The position numbers and the translations under genes were made by a program. From the NCBI RefSeq assembly GCF_041146795.1, contig NC_135172.1:16565123-16629122 (forward strand): a stretch of 64,000 nt of DNA, read 5' to 3'. The notes beneath the pieces are model-generated. The model was not told where the DNA came from. It ran no database searches and worked only from the letters and a program-made list of their open reading frames with translations. The DNA is from Maylandia zebra. Its lineage: Eukaryota; Chordata; Actinopteri; Cichliformes; Cichlidae. Below, in pieces: positions 18,442 to 64,000 of this stretch; position 1 is the stretch's first letter, and each line of letters starts with the position of its first letter.

Positions 18442-20775
18442 AAAAACCTACAAGATAACAGAATGGACATTCCACTCCTTAACACAGTTACAATAGCAAA
18501 ATAAATTGAGAATCAGTACATATTCTCATCAAAAACAGAATCCAAAATAACATAAATACACAATGATGCCAATATTTTCCATAAACCCAATTACAGCTAT
18601 TGTGATTAGTCCGACCTTAACTACTTTAGCTCGATACGTGTACTACCGAGACCTGTATATGAAAGGTACTTGGCCCATTTGTCATTATAGTCGTCCAGTC
18701 TATTTAGCAGCCTATATGATAATCTTTCGTAAGCTGCCACTTGTCCCGAAGAAATATACCATTGAGAGAAGGCAGGAGTCGATGAGGCCTCCGACTCTTT
18801 CACCAACAGCTTCCTCCCCAGCGTAATAGCCATTTGTACCCAATGAGCAAGAGGAGTAGGTAAGTGACCCAAAGCTGAAGGGTCTCCTAGTACATAAAGA
18901 CTGTTCATAAATGGCCTACAACCTTCTCTACTACAGTGTGAATATGAGTCCAATAATCTTGGACCTTGGAGCATCCCCAAAGCAAATGTAAAAGTGTGCC
19001 ACTATCCTGCTGACACTTCCAGCATGCATCGTCAGTCGCTAGACCCACCCTGTGCAACCGTGAGGGTGTCCAGTAAACTCTATTTAAAATCTTAAATTGA
19101 ACCAATCTTGAACGCAGTTCACGTGACATTTTTTTCAGATTCCTAAGAATGCCATTCCATTCCTCAGTGTAAAGCTGAGATTTAAAGCCATTTCCCACGT
19201 TCTTTTGAGGGACAGTGTGTTAGGATCAGAAGCTAATAAAAGCATTTTGTAATAAGCTGATGCCTCTTGTCCACACCCAAAGATTTTTTGATTTCCTCCA
19301 GAATATCGCAGCTTAAAGGGAACTTTGCGGATGAGCCAAATGTATTAACCATCAAATGTCTTAGTTACAGGTATTTCCAAAATTCCTGCCAAAGTAAATC
19401 AAATTCTTCTGCAAGTTTTTCAAATTATTTAAATGTACTGTTTTCGTAAAGATCCCCCAGCACTGTTATACCTCTCTGAAACCAGAGCTTCCAAAAGAAA
19501 GGTAACTTGGTGATAGAAAGTTTGGGATTATACCAAATACCAGCAGATTGGTTGAGATGTGGGTCAAATTTGAATAATTTGGACATTCTTTTCCATACTT
19601 CTTTTAAATGAGAAAATACCAGATGTGATTGGATGTGGGGGAACAGATTAGTTGATAAGCTATATAATGGTGTAAATGGCGATGCAGTACTTTCAATGGA
19701 GAACCAAGTAGGCGCTTTCTCAGGGGGTAAAAACCAATGTGCCAAATGCCTAAGAGAAAAAGCATAATGATATAAAAGTAGATCGGGCATCCCTAACCCA
19801 CCTCTGTCTACTGGTTTCTGCAGTTTTCTCAAATTCAATCTAGGCTTTTTAATACTCCATATAAATGCTTTGCAAATCTGGTCAAATTGTTTGATGTATT
19901 TCAAAAGAACATGGATTGGTAGAGCCTGCAGCAAATAATTGAACTTAGGTGTGCATACCATTTTTTATTACATTTACCTTTCCCCACATCGAAAGATACA
20001 TCTGAGACCAGCGATCAACATTAATTCTCATATCGCTAAGTAGAGGTTCAAAATTTATCTTTATCACGTCTGACAGGTGAGGTGGGAAGGTAATGCCTAA
20101 ATACTTAATGCCCTTCTGAGGCCAGGAAAACATACCGGTTGGAAAAAGCGACCTAGGGCAATAACTAGTTAGCGGAAGGGCCTCTGACTTGGTCCAATTC
20201 ACCTTGTAACCAGAAATACCTGAGAACGTATTTATTATTACCTGCAAGGACTGAAAAGACTTTTCTGGGTCTGATATAAAAAGCAAAATGTCATCGGCGT
20301 ACAACAACAGTTTATGACAGTCTCTCCCTATACTAACACCTGGATAATTGGGCTCCCTACGAATAGCCACTGCCAGTGGCTAAAGGGCCAGAGCAAAAAA
20401 GGAGTGGGGAGAGGGGAGGGGATCTAGTTCCTCTACCTAGTTCAAAAGGAGGCCCTATTATTCCATTTGTAAGTACTGATGCCTTGGCGTCTACATATAC
20501 AAGCCAAATCCAGTTAATAGAGCTTTTAGTAAAACCGAAACACTCCAAAGTGGCAAATAGATATCTCCACTCAACTCTGTCGAATGCCTTTTCGGCATCC
20601 AATGAAATCGCAGCTATGGGAGAATGACTGTCCTGAACCGCCCACATAATGTCAATTAACCTCCTAATATTATCAGCTGAAGAGCGTGAACTTATGACAC
20701 CAACTTGATCTACATGTACAAGAGAGGTTATTACCCAGTTTAATCATCGATTAGCCAGAATTTTAGATAGAATCT
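18442..20775 (-). mobile_element. 5'-truncated, decayed L1/Tx1-like LINE
   Basis: Minus-strand fragments of a non-LTR reverse transcriptase in several frames. At 20357-20647: SLDAEKAFDRVEW and FELGRGTRSPPLSPLLF, the palm motifs of L1-clade enzymes, with the usual RQGCPLSP altered to RSPPLSP. At 19945-20370: the catalytic LLLYADDILLF. At 19425-19961: the connection region with GGLGMPDLLLYHYAFSLRHL. At 18905-19198: VYWTPSRLHRVG with the cysteine motif CWKCQQDSGTLLHLLWGC near the C-terminus. The fragments are collinear but need several frame changes, so the copy is dead. Endonuclease and ORF1 are absent, as expected for 5' truncation. Confidence 0.85.
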
Positions 20776-21300
20776 TACTATCATATTTGTTGGCGTTTTC
20801 TTAAATTGCGGTCCTTTTGGCCCTTCGGGGCCACTGTAGAGAGTCCATTGTAGGAATGTTGACAATGCTGCAAGCCTGAATGCTCATCACTGCTTTTGTT
20901 ACCCGTTGAAGGTCTGGCTCCTGGGTTTGGGTCCTCATAGACGTCAAAACTAGCCAAGCTCCGAGTAAGCATGCTGTCTGTGCAGATGTTAGCAGTATAA
21001 TCCATTTGTTTCTTTCTCAGACTCAGTTTTTATTTCACCATCATGCTCTTGCCTCTTTGTACAGTAAAAATACAAATAATGTCAATATCTCCATTCTGAA
21101 AACCTGTAGACCAAACAACTGTTTTGCTCCTCCAGCAAACAACTGAAATCAGACTTAAGAAGTGTCATTCAGTCTGACATAAATGTAGCCTAAAATGCTT
21201 TTCTCTCATCATCTGCTCAAACTAACAGATGTAGGTCTGTTGCTTTAGCACTTGGTGTTTATTACATTCCTAATGTTATTTTAAACTTGTTTCCTCACAG
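20776..21300. other. Unassigned stretch between LINE and acidic ORF
   Basis: On the minus strand an open frame of 74 codons (20781-21005) reads MDYTANICTDSMLTRSL and has CpG-bearing, codon-like composition, but no family was recognised. The rest is AT-rich and ends in an acceptor-like tract (CTTGTTTCCTCACAG) at 21286-21300. Confidence 0.3.
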
Positions 21301-22130
21301 GTCGTCTTGACTACGTGGTTGAGCGTCCTGCAGAAGAAGGCCTTCCTGAAGTCATCAGGATCCTGGATGACACTGACACTGTCAGTGAAGGTGAGTATGG
21401 TGAGTATCTCCCTCTCTCACCCTCCCCCTCTTCTCATGAAGCACAGCATCCTGATGACAGTGAAGAGGAAGGTGAGTACCCTCCCAACGTACCTGAGGAC
21501 GTTGAAGAGGTGAGTGAAGACACTGACAATTCATCTGACTGGAACGACTCAGAAGAGTGGGGCGATTGGCTTAGCGATGACTCGGGGTATGACACCATGG
21601 ATGAGAGAGATGATTCCCCTCTCATCCGGGAGCTTTCTCCAGAGCCGTTTTGGCACGATTGGCAACGTCCTATTTCTCCAGGTGGTGCCCCATTCGCCAT
21701 GCCGCCTTTCGGCCACGCCAACGACCCACTCTTCCCTCGAGTCGTTGCCCCAGTCGGTGATCCGTCAGCTGCTCCTCCTTCAGCTGCTCCTTCTTCACCT
21801 GCTCTCTTATCTACTCCCTCAGCTGCTTCCTCTCCTGCTCCGTCACCTCCGCCCTCACCTGCTCCTTCTTCTTCACCTGCTCTCTTATCTTTTCCCTCAG
21901 CTGCTTCCTCTGCTGATCCTACAGCTTCTCCTTCTCCTTCAACCTCAGCTCTTACCTCCTCAGCAAAGAGAAGGAGAGAAGACATCTGCACTGAAGAGGT
22001 AAGTGCAAAGGTAAGCAAGGTAAGTGATGACACGTTCTATGGCCCTTCAACATCATCGGGTTCTTTTGGTGTCAGACGCTTCTGGGAAAGGCCTTTTAAC
22101 CTTTCACTTGATGACAGCGACTCTGACTAG
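21301..22130 (+). CDS. Unrecognised acidic, proline/serine/alanine-rich protein (probable 3' exon)
   Basis: An acceptor-like CCTCACAG precedes 21301, and the frame is open from there to a TAG at 22128-22130 (about 276 residues); no ATG precedes the conserved-looking start (RLDYVVERP), so an upstream exon is likely. In order: a strongly acidic N-terminal 110 residues (EGEYGEYLP, EEEGEYPPN, EEVSEDTDNSSDW), a region of alternating Pro, Ser and Ala stretches at roughly 150-220, a basic patch AKRRRED that may be a nuclear localisation signal, and an acidic end DDSDSD. No domain was recognised. Low complexity and charge suggest a disordered nuclear protein; this is inference. It could also belong to a transposon or be a chance ORF in a retrocopy. 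A run of 5' splice-site-like motifs lies inside it. Confidence 0.5.
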
Positions 22131-24692: not shown

Positions 24693-27600
24693 TTAAAGCT
24701 CATCTTTGGTGTTGTTGGCTTTTTTTGCCTCCTCAGCTTTCATGGCCTCGGTGTACTTCCTCCTGTCTTCATCCTCCTGGATACACAAAGGAGAAAAGTA
24801 TATTTTTAACTGAAAGAAAAAGGCAGCTCTCAAACACACAGACAGCTATAAAAACACACAAAGGCACAAGTGTAAGGATGATCATTCACCTTAGCTCTGT
24901 ATTTTTTGGCTTTCTCCATCTCCTTCTCTACAAACTTAATCAGGGGTTTCAGCTTCTTTTTTCCAGTGTAAACCACCACCTACGACACAGACCACAGAGA
25001 TCTCACTGTAATGAGCCTGGTTTCCTCTAAAGAGCAAATAATTCCTTTTTTAAAATCTGTTTTTCGTGATGATATCATAGGCTTTAATAAAAACGATTAA
25101 TCGCCTCATAATTGCCTCGTACCCTTTCAGCATACAGAGCAGGAAACAAGCAGAGTGATGGGTACGTGCCCTGCACTGATAAGTTGATATCATTGGCTGA
25201 AGCATCGATACGAGTGATGACCACGTCCTCGCGCTCCTTAAAGGCCTCAGCTAGTTCCTCCCACAGCGGAAACACAGCGCGGGACTCTTTACTGTAGGGC
25301 AGATCTTCAATACAAACACATACGATTACTTTAGGAAGCTCTCTATGTTTTCACTTTTAATCACAACATAAATTTGAACTTTCCTTGTATCAAATGCCCT
25401 AAATAAGGGCATCATTTTTTTTAATCTGTCAAATTTCATCACATTGTTTGGGATGTATCTCTGCAGTCTGTCTATGGATCTTAAATAGAATTTGAGTGAT
25501 GGTTTTAGCTGAACTACATAAAGGATTGGCACAGACTTGGTTGCTTGTGTTGGTTTGCTCATTTTCTGAAAGGTTAACTGATCATTTCATTGAAGGGGAC
25601 TTCTTCAAGTGTTTGTATTGCCTGGGAGATCTGTTCAAACACTTTTTTGACTCATCATGTTAGGAGGTGGTGGGTAGGTGTATTGTTGTTTTTGGGTTTT
25701 GTTTCCCTTTTTGGCATAGGTAGGCGGGGCGGGGCTTGATGGCATTCCGGCACACCTGCGGCGCATCGGACGTCATCAGTGAGCGCTTTTATGGAGCTGA
25801 GTCACGGACGTCTGGTGTCGGAGTATTGTCGCTGTCATAAGTGGTAACGTGTTGGTGCAAGCTGAATCTGTTGATTCCACGCTATTGAGCTGCATGTTTT
25901 GAGGATCCATCTCCTGCCTGCTTCTCCTTTGTTCTAGCCTGTCCCGCTGCCTGCTCGCCTGCCTATTTGTCTTTGTGTTGGCTTCTTTGGATCCGTGACG
26001 GAGAGTTACTTCATACCAGTCTGTGACCACCGCTACAGCTGTAGTTCTGTGTTTCAAGTAAGCTCTCCAACTCTCCCCATCGTCTTTAGTTTAACTCTCG
26101 GCTATCGACGTTACTCCGTAAACTTTGTCCCTCGTTTTCAGGTAGCTCTGGTGCGTCATCTGCCCACCCGCATACCTCGGCTCCGTCTCGTCTCTTCAGC
26201 TCTGCTCTCCTTGCACATTTTTACCTGTCACTGTATATAGCCCCTTCCCTTGTAAATATTTCCCCATCATTGTATATAAATCTGCATCACTACTATCTTG
26301 TGCCCGTGTGTTTCTGCCACTAAATCCATCCGTGTGAGTTCTCCTAACACATCATGTTAGAGAATCTTTTTCCTTATACTCTCAGGGCCCTTTAAATACA
26401 CTCCCAACAACTCAAATCATGTGCGTTTTCAATCTAAAGGCTTGAAGGTGCTGTTTAGCTTATGGGATTCAGAGGGTGGTCGCCAATTTTAGTCACCAAT
26501 GACTCCCAGTATAACTTAGGGCCCTCTTTAAAAAGAAAAACAAATTAAAGCATGATATTAAAATGAACAGTGTTTACATACAAAACAGGACAAAAACAGT
26601 CTTGTCTGGGTTAAAGGCAACTTTCTCCAGATTCATCCCCACCAGCTCCTTCACTGGTTTTTGGTCCCATCCTTCAGGTATCGGCTCACTCTGCATCTTA
26701 GGCTGTTAGAGATACACAAGTCCATTAAACACATAAAGATGAGCTGCCTCCCGGGTTCTGTCTCTGTGCCACACAGCAGAGGTGAGTGGGACTTACCTTG
26801 GCTTTGCCCTCGAGGTAGTCCTGGCAGAACCTTTCTATGATCTCTACGCTCAGGGCGTCAGAGGGCAGATGGTAGGTCACGTGATTTGACAGGTTAACCA
26901 GTCGGATTAGGGGAGCCTCAAAGTCCCGCACCCGGAAGTACTCCATCATTCTGCCATTGCGAAGCTCAGCCACGTTCACCAACACAAACAAAATCTGACA
27001 CACAAACATATACAGCCCTCAGACGCTCCTGTACATCACAACAAGGCGGCAGGGCCAGGAGGCAGCCTGGGATCAAACCACCGACCTTCGGATTAGTGGC
27101 TGACCTGCTCTGCCACCTGAGCTACAGCCACCCCGTAAGAATGCCCTAAACAGTATGGTCAAAAACAAAGGAAAAATTAAACAAAATCTATGTGCTGTAT
27201 TCATTCTTATCTCACTCTGGGACTAGAGTAAGGGTCAGATACGGTCATTTGTTTATGATTTGCTGTTCTGCAGCCAAACTGCTCACAAGACCTTAGTAAA
27301 GAACTGGTTTGGGTAAAAAGTAGGTTTAAGGTGAGGATTAATGTTATTTATGCGATCGAGTCAAGGTCAGAGTCTGAAAATACATTATTATTGACCTCAA
27401 AAGCACAGACATATGTTAGGTACCTTCATCCTGAATGTCTCTGCAGCGGTGCTGAAGGCAGAAAAAATCTCATCAAAGTCTTCTGAACTTTTGTTGACAA
27501 AGAGAAGAGCGTGGTTTAACACAGGCGAAGATAAGATCTGAGAGGCTGTCTGCAAAAGGAGACAAAGCGGTTCAAACACTTAAGCAGTGAAACTGGATTT

Positions 27601-30600
27601 CAGCTGGCGCTAATGTTAAGGCAATTCAGCACATTTTTAAGTTCAATGGACAGAGCCCTCTACTGACTGAGATAATAATAATAATAATAAACTTTATTTA
27701 TAAAGCACACTTAAAAACCAAGGGTATGCCAAGGTGCTTAACAAGTAAGATGATCATAACAGGTGCAAATGAGGATATTAAGTTGTAATTGAGCCGCTAA
27801 CTGCAAAGGCAGGAGGTGAAGGTGGATAAAGAGGACAACAAACTCCAGCTCTGTGTGCCAAAGCTCCAGTGCATCCATCAGAGTGTGAACGCATGTGATA
27901 AAAAGCACTTAAACTTCAGTTAAAGTGCTGTGCAAACTCATTCAGAGTTTAAAAACACCTTTTAATATGGCGTCATGTATGCCAAAGAGGTGGATAAATA
28001 TTAAAATTGATTTTCAACATAATGCGATCCAGTACCACCACCACCACCCACTACGACCTCAGTGATAAAGATAAAGTAGAATAATCACCTTTCGGGCAAT
28101 GTCAATGTAACCCCTATAGACATGGTTACTAGTATTTTCTTGTTTTTACCTGGTAATATTATTTCCGACACCCCTTGAACACACTTTGATTTTCTGTAGT
28201 TCAGTGAATGCAACAAAAGCACATTGCTGCATTAAGCTAGGCAAAACGGAGCAAGACACCGAGAGCAATTAACAAGCTACACAGTGAGTCTTTTGGTATA
28301 AAATAAGTGTTATAAAGTATTTTCAACAGTCTCTAACTTAAAGTTATGTACTTTTCAGAGGCCTTTATGTGTTTTACTCTCGACCAAAACCAGGCAGAGC
28401 GTGTATTTGTTTCTTGGGAATTCCGGTGAGTTACTAGAGATGATAAGTTAGCAGGAAAACTTATGCTAATTTTACATGTGGTAAACACTGCAACAGTGCG
28501 AATTCCGTATTGTCTAAAAAAAGCTAAAACCAGTCGGAGTACTTGAATCGTGTGTGAAATGGAATGTCGTATTTTATTTTATTGTCTATTTGATTGGGCA
28601 TCTTCACAAATGTGCAAAACTAATGCAGGATGCACTTCTCTTTTAGCCATAAATGTTGTCCAGTGCCTTTTCTGCACTTTGTAATTTCAGTTATAGGTTA
28701 ATACATGTAAATAAGTTATTTAAAACTAGTTACGTTACAAACATTTCATGATGTGATTACATATGCCTTAAAAAGGGGTATATAAATACAATTGATTGTA
28801 ATGCTGTAAAGCAATACAAATGGAATTCATAGAGACAGAACAATGTTAAAACAACAGTGTACTTGATTTTGAAAACTTTATGAGATCTCATTTTATTTAG
28901 AAAAACTGTTAAGAACTATTCTGTTTATTGCTCTGTACTGTATGTGCAGACTGGTTTTTTGTGATCCTGGATCTGAAGTGGTTCTGGATATGGATGGCGA
29001 GCCAGACCCTGTGAAAACTCTTGGCGAATCCAAAAGCAGTGTGGCCAGCTGTTCTGGATGCAGGAGTAGAGCTACAGTCTGAATTACTTCGAATCGCAGG
29101 ATTTCAGATAAGCAAGAGCAAAAACTGCTTACTTGATACGGATTGTTTCTCTGGGAAACAGTTGAACTCCCAATATCCTGCTCATCAGGAGTCAGGTCTA
29201 AAGAGACTAGTTATTTTATTTTATTTTGTTGTTATTTTCAAAAGAGCGCTCTTCTCTGTTGATCTTCTGTTAATTTTCTATGCTGTTTACATTGGATTAT
29301 TGCACCACTGTAACATTGTAATAAATCTGCCGGCTGTTCAACACTCAATTCTCTCAAATTTATTTTACTCCTCTCGAATCTAGTCTATAAGTTTAACCCT
29401 ACTATACTAAGCAGGTGTTACATCAACAATAGACTTATAAAAGTTTATGGCAGAAGAGCTGCATTACACTGCAAGGTGCAAGGTGCTCGGTGGGTGTAGC
29501 CTACATGAAAACAGCAATTAGATTTCAGTCAGCAGAGATTTTCCCTGAACACCATCCCAGTGGATTCAGACCAAACCGTTCCTACCGTAGCTGTTGTATA
29601 TGTGTGAAAATACACCATGGACACAACACTGTACCTGCCCGGTGTACTCAGTGACTGGGTCCATCTGGTAGATCGTGATAAAGACAATCAGGACCCCTTT
29701 AGATGTCTCGGGCGTCATTTTGTAAGCCTTGATGAGCTTAGACTGCAGTGGGCACACACAGACACACAAACATACATGGTATCACAGGTAAGACTATAAC
29801 CAACAAGTCTGCTTCATATATTTATGCTTCTTTTGTAAAACTCTGGATGCAACATCAAGATTTCTTTCAGTTATGCCGTCTTTTTGAAGGCTCACAGTGA
29901 GGTTTATGTTTAAAATCTCACTCATGTTTTATGGCATTCACCCTCAGCTAATTTCTCTTAACTAAACAGAACTAAAAACTAACTAAAGAACTAAAACCTC
30001 TCTTCACATAGAGCAATGTCACAACTAGTATTGTTTTTGTGAACCGGTGTGTTTGTATGTGTTGTGCGTGAAGAACCTTTTTGAGCATCAGAACAACATC
30101 ATGTGTGTGGCCGTATTTGGCGATGACGTCATCGTCCTGCGTCACCACAAACCTGACGTCAGGAAGCTCGACCGCCGTGGCGTAGAACACCTGGACGTAC
30201 TCGTGGTTCAGCTCCTGCTCACACGCAAACGCATAGAAACTGTCGGAGTGCGGTAGATGCACAACATAATAGAGAAGGGAACTCAGGCGAGGCTTTTGTT
30301 TTACCTTAAAGAATCCAACCACTGTCACCTCTTCTGAGGCCTCTGATTGGCTGAGATCAGTGACGAGGTCAGCAGCTGACCCTGCCCTCCGTTTCAGCCA
30401 GGTCAAGATGGAAGCCGAGCTCTGAGGAACTTCAGGACAATCCAAGATCACAAATCACTTTACTGTTAATATTTTACCCAAAACAATTAAGATTCAACAG
30501 CTGAGGGGATCCTAATAACTCCTGGTGCTCTGCAGGAAATATGAAACAACAGCCAGTAAACTCTAACCACTGGTGTTTCACAACAAATGGCAGGCTAGTT

Positions 30601-31863
30601 AAATCAAAGAGACACATGTCTGAAAAGTTCAAGGCAAAATTTAATGACAAGGTGTCAGCTTTAACAACTTAACTGCAGCATGTGCCTCTTTCAGCATGAT
30701 CTTTTCGCATGTTTCCAGAATAAGAGCAAACTTTCATACAAAAAATGCCGTTAAAATTTGTGCTGGATAACTTTAGAGATATATAATAATAATAATAATG
30801 GATTGGATTTATATAGCGCTTTTCAAGGCACCCAAAGCGCTTTACAATACCACTATTCAGTCACTCTCACATTCACACACTGGTGGAAGCAGCTACGGTT
30901 GTAGCCACAGCTGCCCTGGGGCAGACTGACAGAAGCGAGGCTGCCATATCGCGCCATCGGCCCCTCTGGCCAACACCAGTAGGCAAGTAGGGTAGAGTGT
31001 CTACATATGGTTCATATGAAAACATAATGACTCCAGCCAGGGCTTTCACTGCTGTTTTTATTACCCAGCATCTAGCCATCGGTGGTGCCAGCAAACATCA
31101 TAATGAAGTAAGAGTACTAGAGGACAAAGCCCTCGAACAGAGGTAGAGGAAGATTCAAACCAAAGCATCTCTTTGTTTCTCTATTGTTTCCTAATAATCA
31201 GAACCCTGATTTTTCATTCGCTTTGTCACATGATAAAACAAGTGTGGATCATTTATTTTTCAGCAGTATGCCATATCTGGAGCTACTCCTCTGGGTCATG
31301 TCATATGATATACATTGTTCTTGTTAAAAGAATAAATGAGATGAATGAAACTCTTCTGCACCTACCAGGGCAGGCTACTGGGTTGTGTTTATCTCCGGAG
31401 AGGTACAGTCTGATTACTGGGTGGCCCGTTGCGTTCAGTTCTTTAGCCAGGTCCTTCTCTTTTGACACATCAACCACTGCCAGCTTGACCTTTGACCCCT
31501 TGAGCTCTGCTGCAGCTCCTTGGAAAGCTGTAGACACGCGCTGGCTTTCTCCCGACAGAGGTGCAACTGACAGACACGCAGAGGAAATGAGGATTTGATT
31601 TCTTACACACCTTGCAGTCGCCTGTTTGTGCGCTTACCATATGAAAGTATGAAGGTCAAAGGTCATGCTGTACTAGGCTTGATGTTTAACTTACAGAAGT
31701 GCACCAGGAGTTGGTCATGCTTTCTCAGCGCCCTTTTGAAATTCCCCTTCTTCAGCTGTAACACTCCGTCTTTCTCTGGGAACTGTTTGTCTTCCTTCGT
31801 GTCGGCGGCGACGCATACGGCGAGACAGAAGGCCGTCACGCACAGCAGCAAAAGCCTCTTCAT
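24693..31863 (-). CDS. PDIA2/PDILT-like ER protein lacking both CXXC active sites, complete
   Basis: Eleven minus-strand exons: 31695-31863, 31366-31566, 30305-30429, 30077-30214, 29635-29742, 27424-27549, 26797-26994, 26582-26702, 25123-25304, 24890-24979 and 24693-24776. All have GT-AG borders, phases agree and the product is 513 residues, the usual PDI length. Seen: signal peptide (residues 1-20, leucine-rich, ending CVAA); a domain; b and b' domains (SILTWLKRRAG, VTVVGFFK); a' domain (VKELVGMNLEKVAF); and C-terminal KDEL for ER retrieval. Normal PDIs have CGHC in a and a'. Here the same positions read SGES (61-64) and SKES (400-403), so thiol oxidation and isomerisation should be impossible. 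An intact frame of 514 codons argues against a pseudogene. Mammalian PDILT is also degenerate at these sites and acts as a chaperone, so this may be a PDILT-type gene or an independent decay of a pdia2 duplicate. The active paralogue lies about 27 kb away on the same strand. Confidence 0.9.
25658..26349. mobile_element. Solo LTR of an LTR retrotransposon
   Basis: A 692-bp segment begins TGTTAGGAG and ends CTCCTAACA, a perfect terminal inverted repeat of TG...CA type, and is flanked on both sides by the 5-bp direct repeat CATCA (25653-25657 and 26350-26354). It sits in the PDI-like gene's intron between the exons at 26582 and 25304. No internal region or partner LTR is present, consistent with LTR-LTR recombination. 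Clade not determined. Confidence 0.85.
27025..27137 (-). mobile_element. tRNA-derived SINE fragment
   Basis: On the minus strand: GGCTGTAGCTCAGGTGGCAG (A-box-like) followed by GGTGGTTTGATCCC (B-box-like), as in the tRNA heads of fish SINEs. It lies about 30 bp upstream of a PDI-like exon in the intron. The tail is not recognisable. Confidence 0.65.
27669..27760. repeat. (ATA)n plus interspersed repeat fragment
   Basis: An AATAATAATAATAAACTTTA start followed by TTATAAAGCACACTTAAAA. It resembles a common teleost interspersed repeat with the phrase 'tttatttataaagca'. Family not named. Confidence 0.5.
27761..29560. other. Long intron segment with no recognised content
   Basis: AT-rich intronic DNA of the PDI-like gene between exons 27549 and 29635. 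A plus-strand open frame at 29021-29383 has no recognisable family and AT-driven codons, and is not called a gene. Confidence 0.4.
30785..31090. repeat. Teleost interspersed repeat with 'tatatagcgcttttcaag' motif
   Basis: Begins with (ATA)n and TGGATTTATATAGCGCTTTT, then CACTCTCACATTCACACACTG and GGAAGCAGCTACGGTTGTAG. Sequences of this form are abundant in fish genomes. It lies in the intron between PDI-like exons 31366 and 30429. Class uncertain (SINE or LINE 3' end). Confidence 0.55.
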
Positions 31864-33992: not shown

Positions 33993-34335
33993 CGTACAAC
34001 AATTGCATGGTTAGCTTAGCATTAAAGAATAGAAACAGCACCAGGATCACTTAAGCTGGCAAATTATGTTCTATAAAAACTGTTTAATCATAATGAGGTA
34101 AGTAAGAACGTTTTATCTGGTGATATAAACAGCAAAATACCAGAAAACTGCTTAAAAATAGATTAGTACCCTCATTACCTGCAGCTAGCTTGAAGTTTGA
34201 AATTGTTTTCATCTGCAAGAGTAGCTAATTTCGGCTGGTTAGTAAATGTTAAGTACCACACAGGTTTTCCTGTTGTTCATATTCTGAGAGATTCATATCA
34301 AAGCTCCCTCTGTGCTCGATTGTTTCTTGGTCAGG

Positions 34336-35918
34336 TGTTACGACCCGGCTCAAAAGCCGCAACATAAGAAAAAGGAGACGAATAACAGAGTGTGGGTGAG
34401 AAGAGGTTTCATCCTAAAATGGAAAACCAGGTTGGCTAAAATGGCTGGTGCCACCAAGGCAAAGACTAGTGCACTGCTGGAAAGCTTGCCTCAGGTATGC
34501 TTTTATCCACACTTGACTAGGTGTGGCCAATTAGCACCAGCTGAAAACACTGAGACGATTAAAAGCTGCAGAGGGACGCAACACCTCCTCCCTTAAAAGG
34601 GTTCCTCTAGGACCCTTAAATTTATTAAAAGCCCCTCTGAAGCCTTCAGTTCCTTGACCCACAAACCTGGAATAAAAGTTAAAGCTAACAGAAGCACAGT
34701 ATTCACGTTATAGTTGGCATCTCTAAGCATGGATGGGCATGAGGATTTGAAGTTGCCACACTGAACAGACAAAAAGTAACATGTGACCAACACAAAGGAG
34801 CACAACAGTCACAAACCCAAAATGATTACCTGATCTGCTACAACACAAAACCAGAAGTAGCAACAAATAATCACAACTAAGTGATCTGTTGTCTCCACCA
34901 CACAAACAGTCACATACAAGTGGCCCTATACCACAACAAGTTACTTTAATCCAAAAAGTTCAGTAAATCAAGCATACTAGTGACCAACCACAAAATGGAG
35001 AGCTATGGCCACACAATGATCACATCAAGGGTGGCTCAGCACCCCACAGTGTTATTGCCATCACCTGGCCAACAACACTCACAAGTGATCCAACAAAATA
35101 GCCATATTCCCCACAACACTAAAGGTCACAGCCCAAAACACTCACCTCACAAGGATCTCATTAGCATCCATCCACACTGACATATGCACACACAGGGTGT
35201 GCACACAATGCCAACTTAAAAACAGCCTACCTGCCTCAGCTACAGACCATAATCAAGAATGGTCTCAAACCTCCTACCAAGTTTGGTGCCACTGATTTAC
35301 TATGTGCAACTCCCATCCTAAAATGCTAAAAAACAATAAAACTTTACCTGTCTAGTCTTCAGTGGTGTACCGGGCTCGAGGCACCTTTAAACGCAAACTC
35401 AAGGATAGGCAGCAGACCGGGGTACAGTCTCCCACCAAACCCTGAAGCGTACCCCCACCCAGGATAGCCACCAAACACAATAAACTAAAACAATAAAGCA
35501 AAACAACAAACAAGTGCTTCGATGGAAGGGCAGCACAGCCACCCAGCTGAAACACTAAAGGGAGTTTGCTCAATTACAGTGACCACCATCACTCACCCAC
35601 TTAAAAGCAAAACAAACTGACATTCAGTCTCCACTAAAATGTCCAAATATCCCGGACGTGCCACCACTTATGTTACGACCCGGCTCAAAAGCCGCAACAT
35701 AAGAAAAAGGAGACGAATAACAGAGTGTGGGTGAGAAGAGGTTTCATCCTAAAATGGAAAACCAGGTTGGCTAAAATGGCTGGTGCCACCAAGGCAAAGA
35801 CTAGTGCACTGCTGGAAAGCTTGCCTCAGGTATGCTTTTATCCACACCTGACTAGGTGTGGCCAATTAGCACCAGCTGAAAACACTGAGACGATTAAAAG
35901 CTGCAGAGGGACGTAACA
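34336..35918 (-). mobile_element. Short LTR element with matching 248-bp LTRs
   Basis: LTRs at 34336-34583 and 35671-35918 are both 248 bp and differ at only a few positions. They begin TGTTACGACC and end with AACA. The element is flanked by the 5-bp repeat TCAGG (34331-34335 and 35919-35923). A purine-rich tract on the minus strand next to the left LTR suggests minus orientation. The internal part is about 1.1 kb with no recognisable gag or pol, so it looks non-autonomous; structurally whole, probably a recent insertion. Confidence 0.88.
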
Positions 35919-36149
35919 TCAGGCTTGCTGGTCTCCAGTGAAGTGACTGATAGCTATCTAGCTGCAAAATCTTTTCAAACGTGCCAAAGCCAGGTAAGAT
36001 ATACAAGTTGTGTTTGTCTACTCCACATTTACAGTCCAGGTAAGATACCTACAAGTGTGCTGAATCAAAATTGAAAAGGGTAACTGCTAATACACACTTC
36101 CTTTATTCTTTAATAGACCTCATTTTAAAATCTAACATTGGTGCAGAGT

Positions 36150-39100
36150 TAGTGATGGCCAAATGAAGCTTTCCGAAGCACTGAAGCTTGTATTGAAAAA
36201 CGGTTCATTACTCGAAGCTTTTCAACACAGTCCTCTCCGGTGACATCTGGTGGTGAAAATTTTGAAGAGCAGCTTGAATCTGCAAAATAAAACGGACTGC
36301 TCAATTATCACTGCTCACTCAAGAGTGGAGTTCTCTCTGATATTGGGCCACCGTTCCGTTGCTTTGAACATGTAATTGGTTTTGTTTTCTCGATTGGGGG
36401 TGTAACGTCGGGTTGCGTTTAGTGGTTGAGAGGAGGCGGCAAAACACCTAGCAGGGTAGCCAAAAGAATACACACTCACGCTGGCGTTGGGGATTCCACA
36501 GTGTGTTCTTTAATATACCTTCTCTTCATCAACCATATAAGCCCGGTTGAACGGCTGCAGCTTAACAAACATAGCGCACAGTGTTCGTACAACCCATAAC
36601 GTTGCAAACAAAGGTGTCTGGAGAGGTAAAACATAAAATCCGTCCCTCCTCATGTACTAGCGTGCAAGCACATGTCCACACCATCACAGAGAGAGAGAGC
36701 AGAGAGCAGTGGCACAAACTGATGACACCATCAACCCTCGACTTGGGTGTCTTAAAGGGACACCACACCATAGTGGCTGTTACATATTCCCCCCGGGTTA
36801 AACAAAGGCTGCCCTCAGCCGGACCCAGGTGACCCTCCTCCCGCTACCCCCTTTCACCACACATAGCTACTTTAGGTAGTAAGCAGGTCGTGGAGGAATT
36901 GTTACACACCTGTACAGCATTGGTACAGTCCAGACTTAACCAGCCTCCATACATGGTCAGCAGGATAAGAAGTTAAAACCAAAACAGGGAAATGTACAGT
37001 GCAATATTGACAAACTGGCATACATGACAGTGTCCCACATGGTGAATGTCCATTTAAACAAATGTTAAAGAAAGAAAATAAACTTAGCATAGCCAGGACA
37101 ATTACAGAATGAAATTCCCTTTTTCTTTCATTGCGTTTCTTCTACTTCACAAACTTGCAACAGACAGCATAATATGTGAAAACAGTACCAGAAAGTACTG
37201 TAGAAAACCCAAACAACAGTCATGTTACAACAGTAACCAACACGAAATACATAAGAAAATATATGCAAATTCAGGAACTATGGCAAAGCTGCATCGAACC
37301 CACGCCCGGGAAACGCAGGTCCACGCACCACCAATGGAGCCACGACGAAGAGGCCAAACAGAGAACGGCGCCACAGTCCACAAACCATGCTGGAGCAGCT
37401 CCAGTCGTTGCCATGGAAATGCACCACCGCGACCCTTTGATCCTCCCGACGTCCTCGTCCAGGCCAGCCTGGTCCGTTCCCGCGAAACATGGCGGACAGC
37501 CACTTTGCCGCGTCGTACCTTTTTATGTACCAATCATCAGATGCTCGAAGATACTGCATACTGAGGTCCAAGAGAAGATGTTCGGGCGCCATTTTGTAAC
37601 GTCGGGTTGCGTTTAGTGGTTGAGAGGAGGCGGCAAAACACCTAGCAGGGTAGCCAAAAGAATACACACTCACGCTGGCGTTGGGGATTCCACAGTGTGT
37701 TCTTTAATATACCTTCTCTTCATCAACCATATAAGCCCGGTTGAACGGCTGCAGCTTAACAAACATAGCGCACAGTGTTCGTACAACCCATAACGTTGCA
37801 AACAAAGGTGTCTGGAGAGGTAAAACATAAAATCCGTCCCTCCTCATGTACTAGCGTGCAAGCACATGTCCACACCATCACAGAGAGAGAGAGCAGAGAG
37901 CAGTGGCACAAACTGATGACACCATCAACCCTCGACTTGGGTGTCTTAAAGGGACACCACACCATAGTGGCTGTTACAGGGGGCTGAAAAAAATGTAATG
38001 CGTATCTGCGTAATACATTTTGATCAATAAACTTTCCCTATTTAAACATGCACTATGGTGTGGCCTTTCTTTGCTCATAACTCCTTGATGTTGGTAAATA
38101 CAATAAGTGAGCAATATATATAATATACATATGATAATGCACAGCACATTATGGAGTATGCCCCTGCTGTGAAGTCCTGCCTCCATCTACTTGTCGTTTA
38201 ATCACTGGACAGCTGGACAGGTTCATACAAAATATTAGATGAGGCCAATTCCTATACATATTTTTGACCTAGGGGTGGGATTGATTGTGAACTGGAAAGG
38301 GAAAATGCTTAGGGGGCTGAGTACGGCTGCATCGTCACTGATTTGTAGAATCCTTTTGATTCGATACAGGATCCGATTCAATTTGATTGGAATCTGGAAA
38401 GTTTTGCCTCAGTCAGAAATATTACAAGTCTGATCATTTAACAGTATATATCCATAATTTCGTATCTATTAAAAGAAAGCTGACACATGTGAGACTTAAT
38501 TAGAGATGTAAACAGAGAGTTATGAAACCTGCAGCTGCAGAAGCCAGCGGAAAAAAAAAAAAGAGGCAAACACAGCGCGGACCCGACGACGCACCAAAAT
38601 CTGACTCTGACGCGTCGGGTCCGCGCTCTGTGTTTACGTTTGTATGCAGAATCCGTAAACCTGCTCCCAGTTACTGTTTTAGCTGCATGGTGTTTGACGA
38701 CATGTTGTGAGGTTTAACCTGAGATGCTGGCGTTTCAGGCATAATAACGTTAATTTACAAATCGACACAGGATTGTAATGAATCAATATCACTTTATTCA
38801 ATTTAGCATGGATTGTAATCAGAAAGGCGATAATCAAAACCCATCCCTAATCAAGAACTTGCAAAGTAAAAACATGATCTATGTAAGGTAGCCCTTTTGT
38901 TATTTACATTTAAAAAGAGGATTAGTGTTACTGTGCGCTGGCTGAGTCTGTTTCTTTTCTTAGAAATAGTTTCTCCTGCCCTGGAGAAAATCCACTTGCA
39001 TGGAACAGAAGAGGCTGTGGAGTGCAGGAACCACACTGCAAGCTGGTAGATATGCAGGTATTCCTGGGTCCTGCAGACTATCACCTAAAAACAATAAACA

Positions 39101-39808: not shown

Positions 39809-41371
39809 CAGGGAGTGCAGAATTATTAGGCAAATGAGTATTTTGTCCACATCATCCTCTTCATGCATGTTGTCTTACTCCAAGCTGTATAGGCTCGAAA
39901 GCCTACTACCAATTAAGCATATTAGGTGATGTGCATCTCTGTAATGAGAAGGGGTGTGGTCTAATGACATCAACACCCTATATCAGGTGTGCATAATTAT
40001 TAGGCAACTTCCTTTCCTTTGGCAAAATGGGTCAAAAGAAGGACTTGACAGGCTCAGAAAAGTCAAAAATAGTGAGATATCTTGCAGAGGGATGCAGCAG
40101 TCTCAAAATTGCAAAGCTTCTGAAGCGTGATCATCGAACAATCAAGCGTTTCATTCAAAATAGTCAACAGGGTCGCAAGAAGCGTGTGGAAAAACCAAGG
40201 CGCAAAATAACTGCCCATGAACTGAGAAAAGTCAAGCGTGCAGCTGCCAAGATGCCACTTGCCACCAGTTTGGCCATATTTCAGAGCTGCAACATCACTG
40301 GAGTGCCCAAAAGCACAAGGTGTGCAATACTCAGAGACATGGCCAAGGTAAGAAAGGCTGAAAGACGACCACCACTGAACAAGACACACAAGCTGAAACG
40401 TCAAGACTGGGCCAAGAAATATCTCAAGACTGGTTTTTCTAAGGTTTTATGGACTGATGAAATGAGAGTGAGTCTTGATGGGCCAGATGGATGGGCCTGT
40501 GGCTGGATTGGTAAAGGGCAGAGAGCTCCAGTCCGACTCAGACGCCAGCAAGGTGGAGGTGGAGTACTGGTTTGGGCTGGTATCATCAAAGATGAGCTTG
40601 TGGGGCCTTTTCGGGTTGAGGATGGAGTCAAGCTCAACTCCCAGTCCTACTGCCAGTTTCTGGAAGACACCTTCTTCAAGCAGTGGTACAGGAAGAAGTC
40701 TGCATCCTTCAAGAAAAACATGATTTTCATGCAGGACAATGCTCCATCACACGCGTCCAAGTACTCCACAGCGTGGCTGGCAAGAAAGGGTATAAAAGAA
40801 GAAAAACTAATGACATGGCCTCCTTGTTCACCTGATCTGAACCCCATTGAGAACCTGTGGTCCATCATCAAATGTGAGATTTACAAGGAGGGAAAACAGT
40901 ACACCTCTCTGAACAGTGTGTGGGAGGCTGTGGTTGCTGCTGCACGCAATGTTGATGGTGAACAGATCAAAACACTGACAGAATCCATGGATGGCAGGCT
41001 TTTGAGTGTCCTTGCAAAGAAAGGTGGCTATATTGGTCGCTGATTTGTTTTTGTTTTGTTTTTGAATGTCAGAAATGTATATTTGTGAATGTGGAGATGA
41101 TATATTGGTTTCACTGGTAAAAATAAATAATTGAAATGGGTATATATTTGTTTTTTGTTAAGTTGCCTAATAATTATGCACAGTAATAGTCACCTGCACA
41201 CACAGATATCCCCCTAAAATAGCTAAAACTAAAAACAAACTAAAAACTACTTCCAAAAACATTCAGCTTTGATATTAATGAGTTTTTTGGGTTCATTGAG
41301 AACAAGGTTGTTGTTCAATAATAACATTATTCCTCAAAAATACAACTTGCCTAATAATTCTGCACTCCCTG
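39809..41371 (+). mobile_element. Apparently intact Tc1-like transposon with double inverted repeats
   Basis: A 1563-bp element. Outer ends are CAGGGAGTGCAGAATTATTA and its reverse complement at 41350-41371. A second, inner copy of the GCATAATTATTAGGCAACTT motif lies at 39990-40010 and, inverted, at 41161-41182, giving an IR/DR arrangement like Sleeping Beauty-type elements. The target TA is present at the left (39807-39808) and reads CA at the right. It encodes an open transposase. Confidence 0.92.
40027..41043 (+). CDS. Tc1/mariner transposase, full length, DD37E spacing
   Basis: A 338-residue open frame inside the inverted repeats. An N-terminal helix-turn-helix pair (residues about 10-55, with AEGCSSLKIAKLLKRDHRTI) is followed by a basic linker KPRRKI and a second helix-turn-helix region to about 115. 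The catalytic triad is visible: D in VLWTDEMR, D in FMQDNAPSHAS and E in DLNPIENLW. I count 37 residues between the second D and the E, whereas classical Tc1 has 34, so it fits the DD37E (TRT-like) group rather than DD34E. No stop or frameshift interrupts it. The enzyme would cut and paste the surrounding element at TA sites. Whether it is still active is not known. Confidence 0.93.
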   Translation: MGQKKDLTGSEKSKIVRYLAEGCSSLKIAKLLKRDHRTIKRFIQNSQQGRKKRVEKPRRKITAHELRKVKRAAAKMPLATSLAIFQSCNITGVPKSTRCAILRDMAKVRKAERRPPLNKTHKLKRQDWAKKYLKTGFSKVLWTDEMRVSLDGPDGWACGWIGKGQRAPVRLRRQQGGGGVLVWAGIIKDELVGPFRVEDGVKLNSQSYCQFLEDTFFKQWYRKKSASFKKNMIFMQDNAPSHASKYSTAWLARKGIKEEKLMTWPPCSPDLNPIENLWSIIKCEIYKEGKQYTSLNSVWEAVVAAARNVDGEQIKTLTESMDGRLLSVLAKKGGYIGR

Positions 41372-41372
41372 C

Positions 41373-58985: not shown

Positions 58986-59350
58986 TTACAGCTCATCTTT
59001 GGATGTTTTGTTGGTCTTTTCCTCTGCGGACTCATTGGGCTCCTGAAAAAGAGGAAAACGTGTGAACTGTGGATTATTTTTAAAAGAAAAACAGCATAAA
59101 TCTGCAGCGTTAACACAAACCTTGCTATCGCCAGCAGCCTTGTCGGCTTCCTTCTTCTCATCCACCTCATCCTCATCATCATCATCATCATCATCGTCGT
59201 CGTCATCCTCATCCTTTTCCTCTTTAGGTAAAACTCCTCCACCATCCAGGAATTTAGAAAATGTCTCCAGGTCCCTTTCTCCAGTGTATTCGATCACCTG
59301 AGAGAAAAGGAAAGAATGCAGTGTGTAGAGGTGTGTGTGTGCGCATGTGC

Positions 59351-59382
<32 letters not shown>

Positions 59383-62300
59383 TTACCTCTTTGTCACCAG
59401 CTGGGAAGTATTTGAGTGTTGGGAAACTCTTAATGTCAAGAGATTCCACTTCATTGGCTGTGGCGTCTATTTTGGCTATGATGATGTCATCATGGTCGGC
59501 ATATTTCTCACCAAGCTGATCCCAGATGGGAGCCAACTCCTTGCAGTGTCCACACCATGGAGCATCTACACTCAGACACACAGAGATACACATACAAGGA
59601 ACGTCATTCTAATGTTGGTGAAGATGAATTAATGAAAGGTGGATTATTTCAGCTGTATGTTACAGTAAACACAGAGGAATAACCATTTTAGAGATCTGCT
59701 TCGTTGCTTAAAGGAAATGTGGAAGGATAGGAGGTTCTTACCTTAAGTTCAGCTAAATAAACTTTAACTCCCTTAATGCCAACTCCCTGTTTGGTGCATA
59801 CTAATCTACACACATTATATGGACCAAAGAACTTAGCCAACACGATGTTCCACCAACAGGAGCTGCTCGACATGTAAACTCATGCCATGAAGCTCCTGGT
59901 GCACAGTTTCTGTGCTGATGTTAATGACAGAGGTTTGGAGCTCTGCAGTTACTGAGTCAGCAGAGAGTTGGCGTCTTTTATGAACTATACGTGGTCTACC
60001 AACACTTACAGCTGATCGTGGAATTTATAGATGTCACAGAAAATGTTACAAACTGACTTGTTGCTATGATGGCATCCTGTTACAGAACCGATTCTTTCAT
60101 AAATGTTTGTAAAGGCAGACTGCATGGCTAAGTGCTTGACTTTATACACCTGTGGCAATGAAACTGAAAGCACCTGAATTAAAAGGCGTTTCCTAATCCT
60201 TTTGTCCACATAGTGTATGTTCTTTATTTTAGAAATCCAGCTGAGCTGTTGGCCTGTCTTACTGCTCTTGCCCCATATGACTTTAGAGTAGTGACATGGC
60301 CACGTTAACAATTACTTGTGTTAAGTGAGAACAATAATCTTCTTACAGAGTATGTGCCCTTTCTCCACCTTAATGGGTGGGCCAATCTGAATGAAACTTG
60401 CATTACTAACATCTAGATGGTGTTTTTTTATAGATCCATTATAAACCCCAGCTCTGTTAATTTTCATGATATCATGTTCATTTTATCATACCTCTATAAA
60501 TGTGATGTTATCTTCTCTGTTTGCGTTTCTTACTTTTGTTCATCTATTCACCACCAAATACAGAATGAAGAATTTGAAAAACTGCCGCAAGCCTGGCATG
60601 AACTTTAGGATTGGTTGTTGCTAACTAATATTACCTTTTTGCAGTTGTGTGACTCCATCCATATACTAAAGTTGGAATGTACTTCTGATTGTGTCCAGAC
60701 TCAAGATACATGCAGTGCAGACGCTGAACGAATTTATTAATCGGTGGATACAAAAGGTCAGCATCACCAGATCAGCATCTGACTGAAGGTGAAATATCGT
60801 CACAGTCTCACCCTCTGCTTCTGTGTGCGTATGGCGCCAAATATTGGCCAAAAAAGTGTTTTTGAAGAACAACACTATGGCAAAGCACAGGTGACCATCG
60901 ACCTTCTGGCTTTAAAATGCTATTTTATTAGACATTTTGTGGCTGTAGTCTTGACTGGTTGCATTGATGTTTGGCCAGCAAATTCTAATCAGCTGTTCAG
61001 TGTGTGCAAGACAACGTTTAAGCAAATTTTGGCAGGATTAAAAGATTAAAAGACAGCCACAGCATAATTATGCCTCGAACATATAAAAAGAACAGGTGTG
61101 AATTTATACTACTTTTTCTCCAGGCTAAGCCTTTTTCCCAAATCCGGATCTTTCTCCACATGCCCTGCTTTGATTACAGGAGTGGAATCAGTTGCTTGGT
61201 GGCTTGAGTTTCCAGCTGCCAATCATCTGCAATCATCTGTGCCTCAAATACCGGTCCTTAGCTCCAGCATGCTGCCCAATCACATAATCAGCCGTTCAGT
61301 TCCTCGAGCCACTCACTAAACCTCTTGCTAATTCCTTGCTGATCCACTCCTGGAGTGGACCTCCTCTGGTCTCCAGCTTGCACAGATTACTTGTGTCTGA
61401 GTGTCCCTCTCTGCTCTCACTGGCTCGGATTAGCCTTCGCTCTGTGTGCACGCTGCCAGCTCCAATCCTTTTACCAGCTCATTCTGCTTCTCTGTCTCAA
61501 ACACTTCATGATGTTCTTTGGTAAACTGTAAATAAATGTTGCTTGACCATGCTTCTGCTTCCTGTCGCTTCACTTTGAGTTCTCTCCAGCTTTAACACAA
61601 GACTTGAATGATAATGTTATCATATATAGATACTGCATCTAATATCAGTACCTCCTTCACTCAATAGCTTAATCTACTTCTGTTAGTGCTTGTTTTGTGT
61701 CCTCTTCTGTAGTTTCTGTAACATTAAAATCGTTCAGTATGCTATAGACTCTACAGCCTTTGCTCCATGCTCTCTTGAGAGGATGTTTTGTTCAGAAGTA
61801 GTAAATTCAAGGAGTTTTCCCTCCTTGAATCCACTGTTGGTGGATATGCAAATATTTTTCTTGTCAAAGGTTTAAAGACTGCATTGGAAATGTCTATCCT
61901 CGGTGTTTGTGCAGGGTTCCAGCTGCCAAATTTCCTATTAGACCAGGACTCGCTTTTAAGTTATTGAGATGTCGGAAATCCTGCTCACAGGTAGGCTCAT
62001 TAAAGTAAGATGAGACACCGGAGCAACTCCGGTGCCTCATTTAGCGAAGCAGCTTAAATCAAGGACTAATGAATTTGAAGTCAGAGAAAAGTGATGATCA
62101 AAGTGATGTTGGCAAACTTCACTGCAAATTTGATTGAGTTGAATAATAAATGAACGCTCTGATTTCACAAGATCCCTGTCCAGGATTTGACTTACAAAAC
62201 TCCACAAACACATTTTTGGTCGGGTCCAGAGCGACGGAGTCAAAGTTCTTTCCCACCAGGATTTTAACTGGTCCTTTGTCCCAGTCCTCTGGGATATCCT

Positions 62301-62663
62301 CTGACCGATAGTAAGGCTGCAGAAGAAAAAAGGACCAGTTAGAAGAACTCGTACTTCTACAGTACTTTACTAGTTACATTACTTCACTCCAAGTGCTTTT
62401 AACCTAACATTCACAGTCACATACAGACTTGAGAAGGTGAGGACTGTCTGCATTTGTAGTACCTTTGCAGTACCATCCACAACCTCTTGGCACAGCTGTC
62501 GTAGTGAGTCTATGGTCAGTTCCTCTGAGTCATTGGCGTACTTCTTTCCTGTGTCCATATTAATGATGCGCATCGTGGGGGCGTCGTCCTTGGACACGGC
62601 AAAGTAGCTCAGCACGTGTGACAGGGGCTCTGACACGTCTATCAGAATGAACAGCAGCTGTAT

Positions 62664-62750
<87 letters not shown>

Positions 62751-62818
62751 TTCCAACAGTTTAGAGGACGAAGCACTGATGAAACAAAGTCTTCACCTTA
62801 CATTGTAATGATCCGCAT

Positions 62819-62901
<83 letters not shown>

Positions 62902-63045
62902 CAGGACAGTTACCTTTCCCTTGAACTCCTTGGCAACAGCCTTGAATTTTTCCAGGAGCCTCATCTGACTCTCCGCTGTGGAGTTCATGAACAGAAGGCA
63001 GTGCACGTTGATGCCAGAGTTGAAGACTTTGTCTGCTACCTGAAA

Positions 63046-63127
<82 letters not shown>

Positions 63128-63312
63128 ATGCTATCATTTTTTAAATTTAATTGCAGTTTTCTCTTCGTGTCTGCTCACTGGTGTGTGCGTTACCTCCTGG
63201 CTGAATCGGATGATCAGCTGCAGGCTGTTTTGCTTGATGAAGGTGGTCATGTTGTTTTTGTCCAACTTCCCTTCTTCTGACAACACAAAGTCTGCTCTGC
63301 CATCATCAAACT

Positions 63313-63379
<67 letters not shown>

Positions 63380-64000
63380 TTACATTTTACATACTTGAAA
63401 TATTACACCTGCAGGATTAAGGTTCATAATTCTGTGCGTTCTTTCTCCACATCTATAACACAGTAGTTGCTGTATAATCTACCCTCTCAAATCCATAAAT
63501 GTCATAGTAATTAATGTGTTTTGGTCTTTAATTCAGTTTTAGTGGTTTTAATGTTTGATTTGTTACCTCATGTGTACGTTTTTTCTTTCACATACAGTAT
63601 GTTTAAATGGTTTTCTATGTTTGTTTTTTCTTAATTACCTATAAATAATATCAACCTACCAGGTTGCATTTTCCCTTTTAAATAAATACAAAGATTATTA
63701 CAACTATTTTGTCATATTCTCACTGATTCATCAAAATCTGTTTTATAGTGAAGTTATTCAAAGAAATGACTCATAGACTCAAAGAAGTTGATTCTGTTAT
63801 ATGTCACAGTCTCTTTTTCTGATGTTTTTTCTCTTCATGGTCAATAGGATAAATAATTTACAGGAACACGCAGTCACCATCTCCGGACACTAGATGGCAG
63901 CAAAGCAAAGTATCTGCAAAGTATTTGTACCGTTTTGAAGAGCACCACGGAGCTGCCTTTCACCTCATACTTCTGGAAAACCTCTGGAGTGGCTGTGACT
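58986..64000 (-). CDS. pdia2: Protein disulfide-isomerase A2, 3' part (runs off right edge)
   Basis: Eight minus-strand exons are visible: 63931-64000 (cut by the window edge), 63194-63310, 62914-63039, 62463-62657, 62196-62316, 59387-59565, 59121-59297 and 58986-59042, with compatible phases. The enzyme forms and reshuffles disulfides in the ER lumen. Seen: the end of domain b ([19 protein letters not shown]), domain b' ([18 protein letters not shown] to [10 protein letters not shown]), the linker [20 protein letters not shown], the a' domain with an intact [14 protein letters not shown], the cis-proline region [11 protein letters not shown], an aspartate-rich C-tail (eleven D in a row from TCA/TCG repeats) and KDEL. 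Exon lengths 121, 126 and about 180-198 match the redox-dead paralogue at 24693-31863, so the pair arose by tandem duplication. The symbol rests on synteny; p4hb is the alternative. Confidence 0.9.
59330..59380. repeat. (GT)n tract with CG interruptions, after a pdia2 donor
   Basis: GT run broken by GCGC steps, immediately downstream (gene strand) of the donor of exon 59387-59565. Confidence 0.9.
59745..60215 (-). mobile_element. Tc1/mariner remnant in pdia2 intron
   Basis: Phrases CTCATGCCATGAAGCTCC, GATGTTAATGACAGAGG, GTAAAGGCAGACTGCATGG and the end CCTTTTGTCCACATAGTGTA occur in the order of a common fish Tc1-like family, different from the two above. Decayed, with internal deletion. Confidence 0.65.
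61090..61600. other. Possible solo-LTR-like sequence in pdia2 intron
   Basis: Pyrimidine-rich sequence with CTCCTGGAGTGGACCTCC and, near its end, AAATAAATGTTGCTTGACC followed by TGCTTCTGCTTCCTG, resembling the polyadenylation part of fish LTRs. No terminal repeats or target duplication were identified. Confidence 0.25.
62664..62749. repeat. (CA)n microsatellite directly before a pdia2 acceptor
   Basis: About 42 CA units; on the gene's strand this is a GT/UG tract ending a few nucleotides upstream of the acceptor of exon 62463-62657. Confidence 0.97.
62819..62898. repeat. (CA)n microsatellite downstream of a pdia2 donor
   Basis: About 40 CA units in the intron following exon 62914-63039. Confidence 0.97.
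63049..63122. repeat. (CA)n microsatellite directly before a pdia2 acceptor
   Basis: About 37 CA units, ending about 9 nt upstream of the acceptor of exon 62914-63039 on the gene's strand. Confidence 0.97.
63316..63378. repeat. (CA)n microsatellite directly before a pdia2 acceptor
   Basis: About 31 CA units, ending a few nucleotides upstream of the acceptor of exon 63194-63310 on the gene's strand. Confidence 0.97.

Follow-up and report, generated by a model that had tools for sequence, protein, structure and literature searches.

The window analysed here, a stretch of 64,000 nucleotides from the cichlid fish Maylandia zebra (NC_135172.1), carries a gene of the protein disulfide isomerase (PDI) family, called W1 below, whose two active sites are devoid of cysteine. 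W1 occupies positions 31863 to 24693 on the minus strand, in 11 exons separated by 10 GT-AG introns, and a second PDI gene, W2, sits at a distance of 27 kb in the same orientation and runs past the end of the window. Judged from its sequence, W1 is probably a fish PDILT that lacks one cysteine more than the human protein does at its sites, and probably not a freshly inactivated PDI. It is a real, intact gene, and it is not a new class of protein.

When joined, the exons of W1 give 1542 nt that are in frame from an ATG start to a C-terminal KDEL, encoding 513 residues with zero internal stops. The exon boundaries were picked by eye, with a script requiring the GT or AG context of each intron to be present and unique, and the hydrophobic leader was likewise judged by eye. 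Rejoining the exons reproduced exactly what a preliminary description of the locus had given for the coordinates, the 11 exons, the 513 residues, the site motifs SGES and SKES and the KDEL. The exons of W1 and the part of W2 inside the window are as follows.

31695..31863, minus strand: W1 exon 1, with the ATG, the hydrophobic leader (by eye) and the start of the a domain, followed by a GT donor
31366..31566, minus strand: W1 exon 2, a domain, with SGES (61-64) and, near the 3′ end, Cys122
30305..30429, minus strand: W1 exon 3, end of the a domain and start of b
30077..30214, minus strand: W1 exon 4, b domain, with Pfam Thioredoxin_6 at 164-348
29635..29742, minus strand: W1 exon 5, b/b′ junction, matching a W2 exon in order and phase
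27424..27549, minus strand: W1 exon 6, b′ domain, 126 nt as in its W2 counterpart
26797..26994, minus strand: W1 exon 7, b′ domain, where Arg301, Gly303 and Arg310 match human PDILT
26582..26702, minus strand: W1 exon 8, start of the a′ domain, 121 nt as in its W2 counterpart and in the same phase
25123..25304, minus strand: W1 exon 9, a′ domain, with SKES (400-403) and Asp434-Ile435
24890..24979, minus strand: W1 exon 10, end of the a′ domain and start of the charged tail
24693..24776, minus strand: W1 exon 11, charged tail, KDEL and stop
58986..63999, minus strand: W2, 3′ part of the second PDI gene, 8 exons and 346 residues (b to a′), its 5′ end beyond the window

Pfam recognizes Thioredoxin in two stretches of W1 and Thioredoxin_6 at residues 164-348, and the protein contains five N-glycosylation sequons. 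Both the a-b-b′-a′ order of thioredoxin-fold domains and a signal for retention in the endoplasmic reticulum (ER), here accompanied by the leader seen by eye, are traits of PDILT that W1 displays. The exons common to W1 and W2 have the same order and phases, and two pairs have equal lengths (126/126 nt and 121/121 nt); the retention of this exon order and phasing, together with the 10 introns, rules out an origin of W1 as a retrocopy.

Active sites and remaining cysteines

The a site of W1 reads SGES (residues 61-64, codons TCG GGA GAA AGC) and the a′ site SKES (residues 400-403, codons AGT AAA GAG TCC). No CXXC motif is thus left anywhere in the protein, at least one of which characterizes a catalytic PDI such as P4HB or PDIA2. 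The earlier statement that every cysteine is lost holds for both sites but not for the rest of the chain, where Cys122, Cys346 and Cys447 remain outside the leader.

The loss extends to the surroundings of the sites. Buried glutamates and arginines near PDI active sites assist catalysis. In the alignment, Glu47 and Glu391 of P4HB correspond to His55 and Leu394 of W1, and Arg120 and Arg461 to Gln126 and Lys464, while the columns of Glu47, Arg120, Glu391 and Arg461 are occupied in human PDILT by Leu, Val, Met and His. The cis-prolines are kept as Pro106 and Pro444, in columns that hold proline in every protein covering them. As aligned, the catalytic set is gone from W1 and the structural residue retained, as in human PDILT, which strengthens the initial description of a PDI fold kept in the ER and devoid of catalytic cysteines.

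According to published tables, the sites of human PDILT are 72-SKQS-75 and 417-SKKC-420 (PMC12561257; motifs also in PMC12781119). An SXXS a site lacking both cysteines is therefore common to the two proteins (SGES and SKQS), as is the opening Ser-Lys of the a′ site, whose serine takes the first cysteine position, and as far as the cysteines of a′ are concerned the aligned sequences differ only at the last one, human Cys420 being Ser403 in W1. If W1 is PDILT, the loss of the a-site cysteines and of the first a′ cysteine is older than the split between fish and tetrapods. Since W1 is most likely PDILT itself, the loss at the a site would be old and shared, and what sets the fish protein apart would be one a′ cysteine; PDILT had been brought in at first as a mere analogy, and the likeness stands while the analogy gives way to probable identity.

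Of the three remaining cysteines, Cys122 aligns with Cys135 of human PDILT and with Tyr116 of P4HB, in a region where W2 has no coverage (Cys135 is position 130 of the 5xf7 chain, in which the two human motifs occupy 67-70 and 412-415, so that native numbering is obtained by adding 5). This raises a refinement of the PDILT reading, compatible with it, in which Cys122 would be the seat of the redox-linked activity left to the protein, trapping clients covalently or joining a dimer. PDILT neither oxidises nor reduces disulfides, yet the human protein forms disulfide-bonded complexes in vitro (PMC3500226), which would suit such a function; the passages found do not name the human cysteine behind these complexes, and human PDILT also has Cys420, absent in W1, so that we regard the refinement as possible but somewhat doubtful.

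Relationship to PDILT, P4HB and the neighbouring gene

The placement of W1 as PDILT, for which orthology is taken as the criterion and the SXXC a′ site as a descriptive trait of the human protein, was examined in a grouping test with four proteins: W1, W2, human P4HB (8eoj) and human PDILT (5xf7), W2 being partial and human PDIA2 lying outside the set. Across the 286 columns covered by all four, 17 sites pair W1 with PDILT, 7 pair it with P4HB and 0 with W2, and after removal of residues 393-410 around the a′ site, the remaining 268 columns give 13, 7 and 0. Residues that W1 shares with only one other protein of the set number 31 for PDILT, 21 for P4HB and 10 for W2 (286 columns). The tree joining W1 and PDILT is the best under both LG+G4 (log-likelihood −2555.9) and LG+C20+G4 (−2583.8, which is lower), as far as four proteins, one of them partial, can indicate. 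In the approximately unbiased (AU) test under LG+G4, the two rival trees have p values of 0.0007 and 0.005, or 0.003 and 0.021 once the site region is left out. When data were simulated under LG+G4 on each rival tree, long branches included, none of the 1000 replicates per tree reached at least 17 W1+PDILT sites, and a lead of at least 10 over the W1+P4HB pattern arose in 7 of 1000 and 5 of 1000; long-branch attraction is thus not easily invoked for the signal under this model.

Individual residues agree with this grouping. W1 and human PDILT agree at Arg301, Arg310, Asp434 and Ile435, where P4HB and W2 each have other residues, and Gly303 is as in PDILT and not P4HB, with a gap in W2. Tyr308, Val311 and Asn323 are common to W1 and human PDILT and also occur in W2.

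Among known PDIs, human PDILT (PDIA7; PDB 5xf7 and 4nwy) resembles W1 in its a-b-b′-a′ order, in the serines at both a-site cysteine positions and at the first of a′, in Cys122/Cys135, in Arg301, Gly303 and Arg310 of b′ and Asp434-Ile435 of a′, and in the absence of the buried glutamate and the site arginine at both sites; it differs in having SKKC where W1 has SKES, and KEEL instead of KDEL. P4HB (PDIA1; PDB 8eoj) has the same domain order and, of three comparisons, the highest identity to W1, but its sites are both CGHC, accompanied by Glu47/Arg120 and Glu391/Arg461, none of which is found in W1. ERp27, whose chain 4f9z is matched at 6.2e-24, is likewise a PDI-family chaperone with b-b′ domains and, unlike W1, lacks the a and a′ domains (PMC12781119).

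Several observations weigh against PDILT. A phmmer search with W1 against PDB sequences, which returned 58 distinct sequences at E ≤0.001, placed human P4HB entries at ranks 1-3 (best 8eoj, 327.9 bits, E 1.1e-96) and human PDILT at rank 4 (5xf7, 273.7 bits, E 2.9e-80). The identity of W1 to human P4HB is 38.1% over 478 columns and exceeds that to human PDILT (33.8% over 447 columns), the value for W2 being 32.0% over 319 columns. In 444 columns aligned among W1, P4HB and PDILT, 90 hold the same residue in all three, 78 unite W1 with P4HB and not PDILT, and 60 unite it with PDILT and not P4HB. At 513 residues, W1 falls 71 short of the human protein (584), and Ser403 departs from the SXXC a′ site. 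Under LG+C20+G4, the rival trees have AU p values of 0.14 and 0.25 (0.10 and 0.27 once that region is dropped), which are not significant; W1 and human PDILT both sit on long branches, and attraction was simulated under LG+G4 only. Finally, no second fish sequence was found in collections of genome and viral contigs that are not meant for fish, where 16 and 8 pattern matches (the latter to the a′ piece only) yielded 0 confirmed relatives. A slowly changing P4HB could account for its higher scores and for the 78 versus 60 columns, although these lend no support to PDILT. With the b′ domain alone, PDILT comes first by one bit (80.3 versus 79.3 for P4HB), a lead that is no evidence by itself. Bit scores and identities were consequently set aside as evidence of orthology, P4HB being higher over the whole protein and the b′ lead of PDILT amounting to 1 bit.

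The same observations bear on the possibility that W1 arose within fish as a copy of pdia2 or p4hb, its two sites having been lost independently of PDILT. W2 has CGHC in a′, an acidic tail, both features setting it apart from W1, and KDEL; its nearest PDB match is P4HB, and given the features of the human PDIA2 (PDIp) tail, W2 is probably pdia2. Its proximity (27 kb, same strand), the matching exon order and phases, the closer identity of W1 to P4HB, the 78 versus 60 columns and the failure of LG+C20 to exclude the rival trees all favour a fish-specific copy. A recent local duplication would be expected to group W1 with W2, however, and this pattern is found at 0 of 286 columns against 17 for PDILT; the AU test under LG+G4, the simulations, the four residues that are PDILT-like and unlike P4HB and W2, and Cys122, unlike its counterpart in P4HB, speak against it as well. 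We thus consider an independent fish-specific copy unlikely, and a recent duplication of W2 is rejected under LG+G4 and its simulations, though not under LG+C20. The tandem duplication proposed in the preliminary description is right in that a CGHC-type gene lies nearby on the same strand, but the two genes are separated by a LITAF-like exon and by stretches of transposon, and a tandem origin, if there was one, would predate the fish-tetrapod split.

Very unlikely is a decaying pseudogene that happens still to be open: catalytic residues are indeed gone at both sites, but the 11 open exons, 10 GT-AG introns, ATG and KDEL persist, the missing residues are also missing from human PDILT, a protein that published work on the mouse shows to be required for fertility, and when neutral decay of the coding sequence was simulated in 2000 copies by substitutions alone, with transitions favoured, the open frame, splice sites and ATG survived in 18.7% of copies at 2% divergence, in 1.4% at 5% (about 99% broken) and in 0 of 2000 at 10%.

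Predicted role

Having an a-b-b′-a′ architecture and no dithiol site, W1 should neither oxidise, reduce nor isomerise disulfides in the ER. We think it quite likely that W1 is a fish PDILT orthologue working as a non-redox holding chaperone of this compartment. Its b′ domain, aided by a and a′, would bind unfolded client glycoproteins, and the KDEL would retrieve the protein to the ER. Cys122, the one free cysteine of W1 that is common to human PDILT and not to P4HB, could engage clients or partners through mixed disulfides, or link a homodimer.

In the literature, PDILT is grouped with ERp29 and ERp27 as a chaperone (PMC7687155), interacts with Ero1-alpha and, per review, has expression reported only in testis (PMC3500226); in a panel of 11 tissues, its transcripts were seen in testis and in none of the non-gonadal tissues (PMC4735587). 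A complex of PDILT with calmegin occurs in post-meiotic germ cells (PMC3174242), and mammalian PDILT also forms complexes with CALR3 and has a role in ADAM3 maturation. By analogy, W1 may be expressed in the germ line of Maylandia zebra, and the roles of mammalian PDILT may carry over to it. Two published points pull the other way. A review table gives the stomach as a site of high PDILT expression (PMC12384036), so that the tissue picture is not uniform, and disulfide bond formation in ADAM3 has been tied to mammalian PDILT (PMC8026947, PMC11383184), a point in favour of some thiol role in mammals and against a purely non-redox one. A search for PDILT genes in snakes is reported to have found none (PMC9146206), so that some lineages may have lost the gene. 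Among the papers listed by searches of the open literature, none was a study of fish PDILT judged by title or start of abstract, public fish genome annotation being outside those searches.

We tentatively propose, as a speculation rather than an expectation, that fish PDILT has functioned for hundreds of millions of years with no cysteine at its sites and that the role of the protein in gametes is independent of redox chemistry at its core; the mammalian SXXC cysteine would then be a leftover or a later speciality for ADAM3-type clients, and Cys122/Cys135 the sole ancestral thiol of PDILT. Most fish fertilise outside the body, and fish are not known to have ADAM3. Were SKES fixed across fish, PDILT function would need no catalytic thiol, and fish would offer a route to its original clients. 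On the PDILT reading, the view of W1 shifts from a newly dead enzyme to an old non-enzyme chaperone.

The surrounding window

Apart from the second PDI gene, the neighbours of W1 recognized by Pfam are Ion_trans, MARVEL and LITAF-like exons, which may belong to CACNA1H, SYNGR3 and CDIP1/LITAF, genes of human 16p. In human, PDIA2 and PDILT also map to this arm, at 16p13.3 and 16p12.3, respectively (PMC3500226). The further features of the window are listed in order of position.

588-794 and 4460-4642, plus strand: Ion_trans matches of a voltage-gated cation channel, a T-type calcium channel by eye
15652-15999, minus strand: MARVEL-domain exon, synaptogyrin-like by eye
19948-20379, minus strand: reverse transcriptase match, by eye belonging to a LINE-like element
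21285-22127, plus strand: acidic stop-free stretch of 281 residues with zero Pfam matches at E 0.001
34288-38037: block in which translated stretches are repeated, for example 34288/35638 (plus), 36318/37281 (minus) and 36575/37769 (plus), and which is duplicated or transposon-derived
39997-42375, plus strand, between W1 and W2: a stop-free DDE_3 transposase stretch of 348 residues followed by a reverse transcriptase stretch of 381 residues, that is, two different transposons adjoining
44971-45186, minus strand: LITAF-like zinc ribbon exon, so that another gene (CDIP1/LITAF-like) may sit between W1 and W2
62668-63373: several W2 introns with long GT microsatellites

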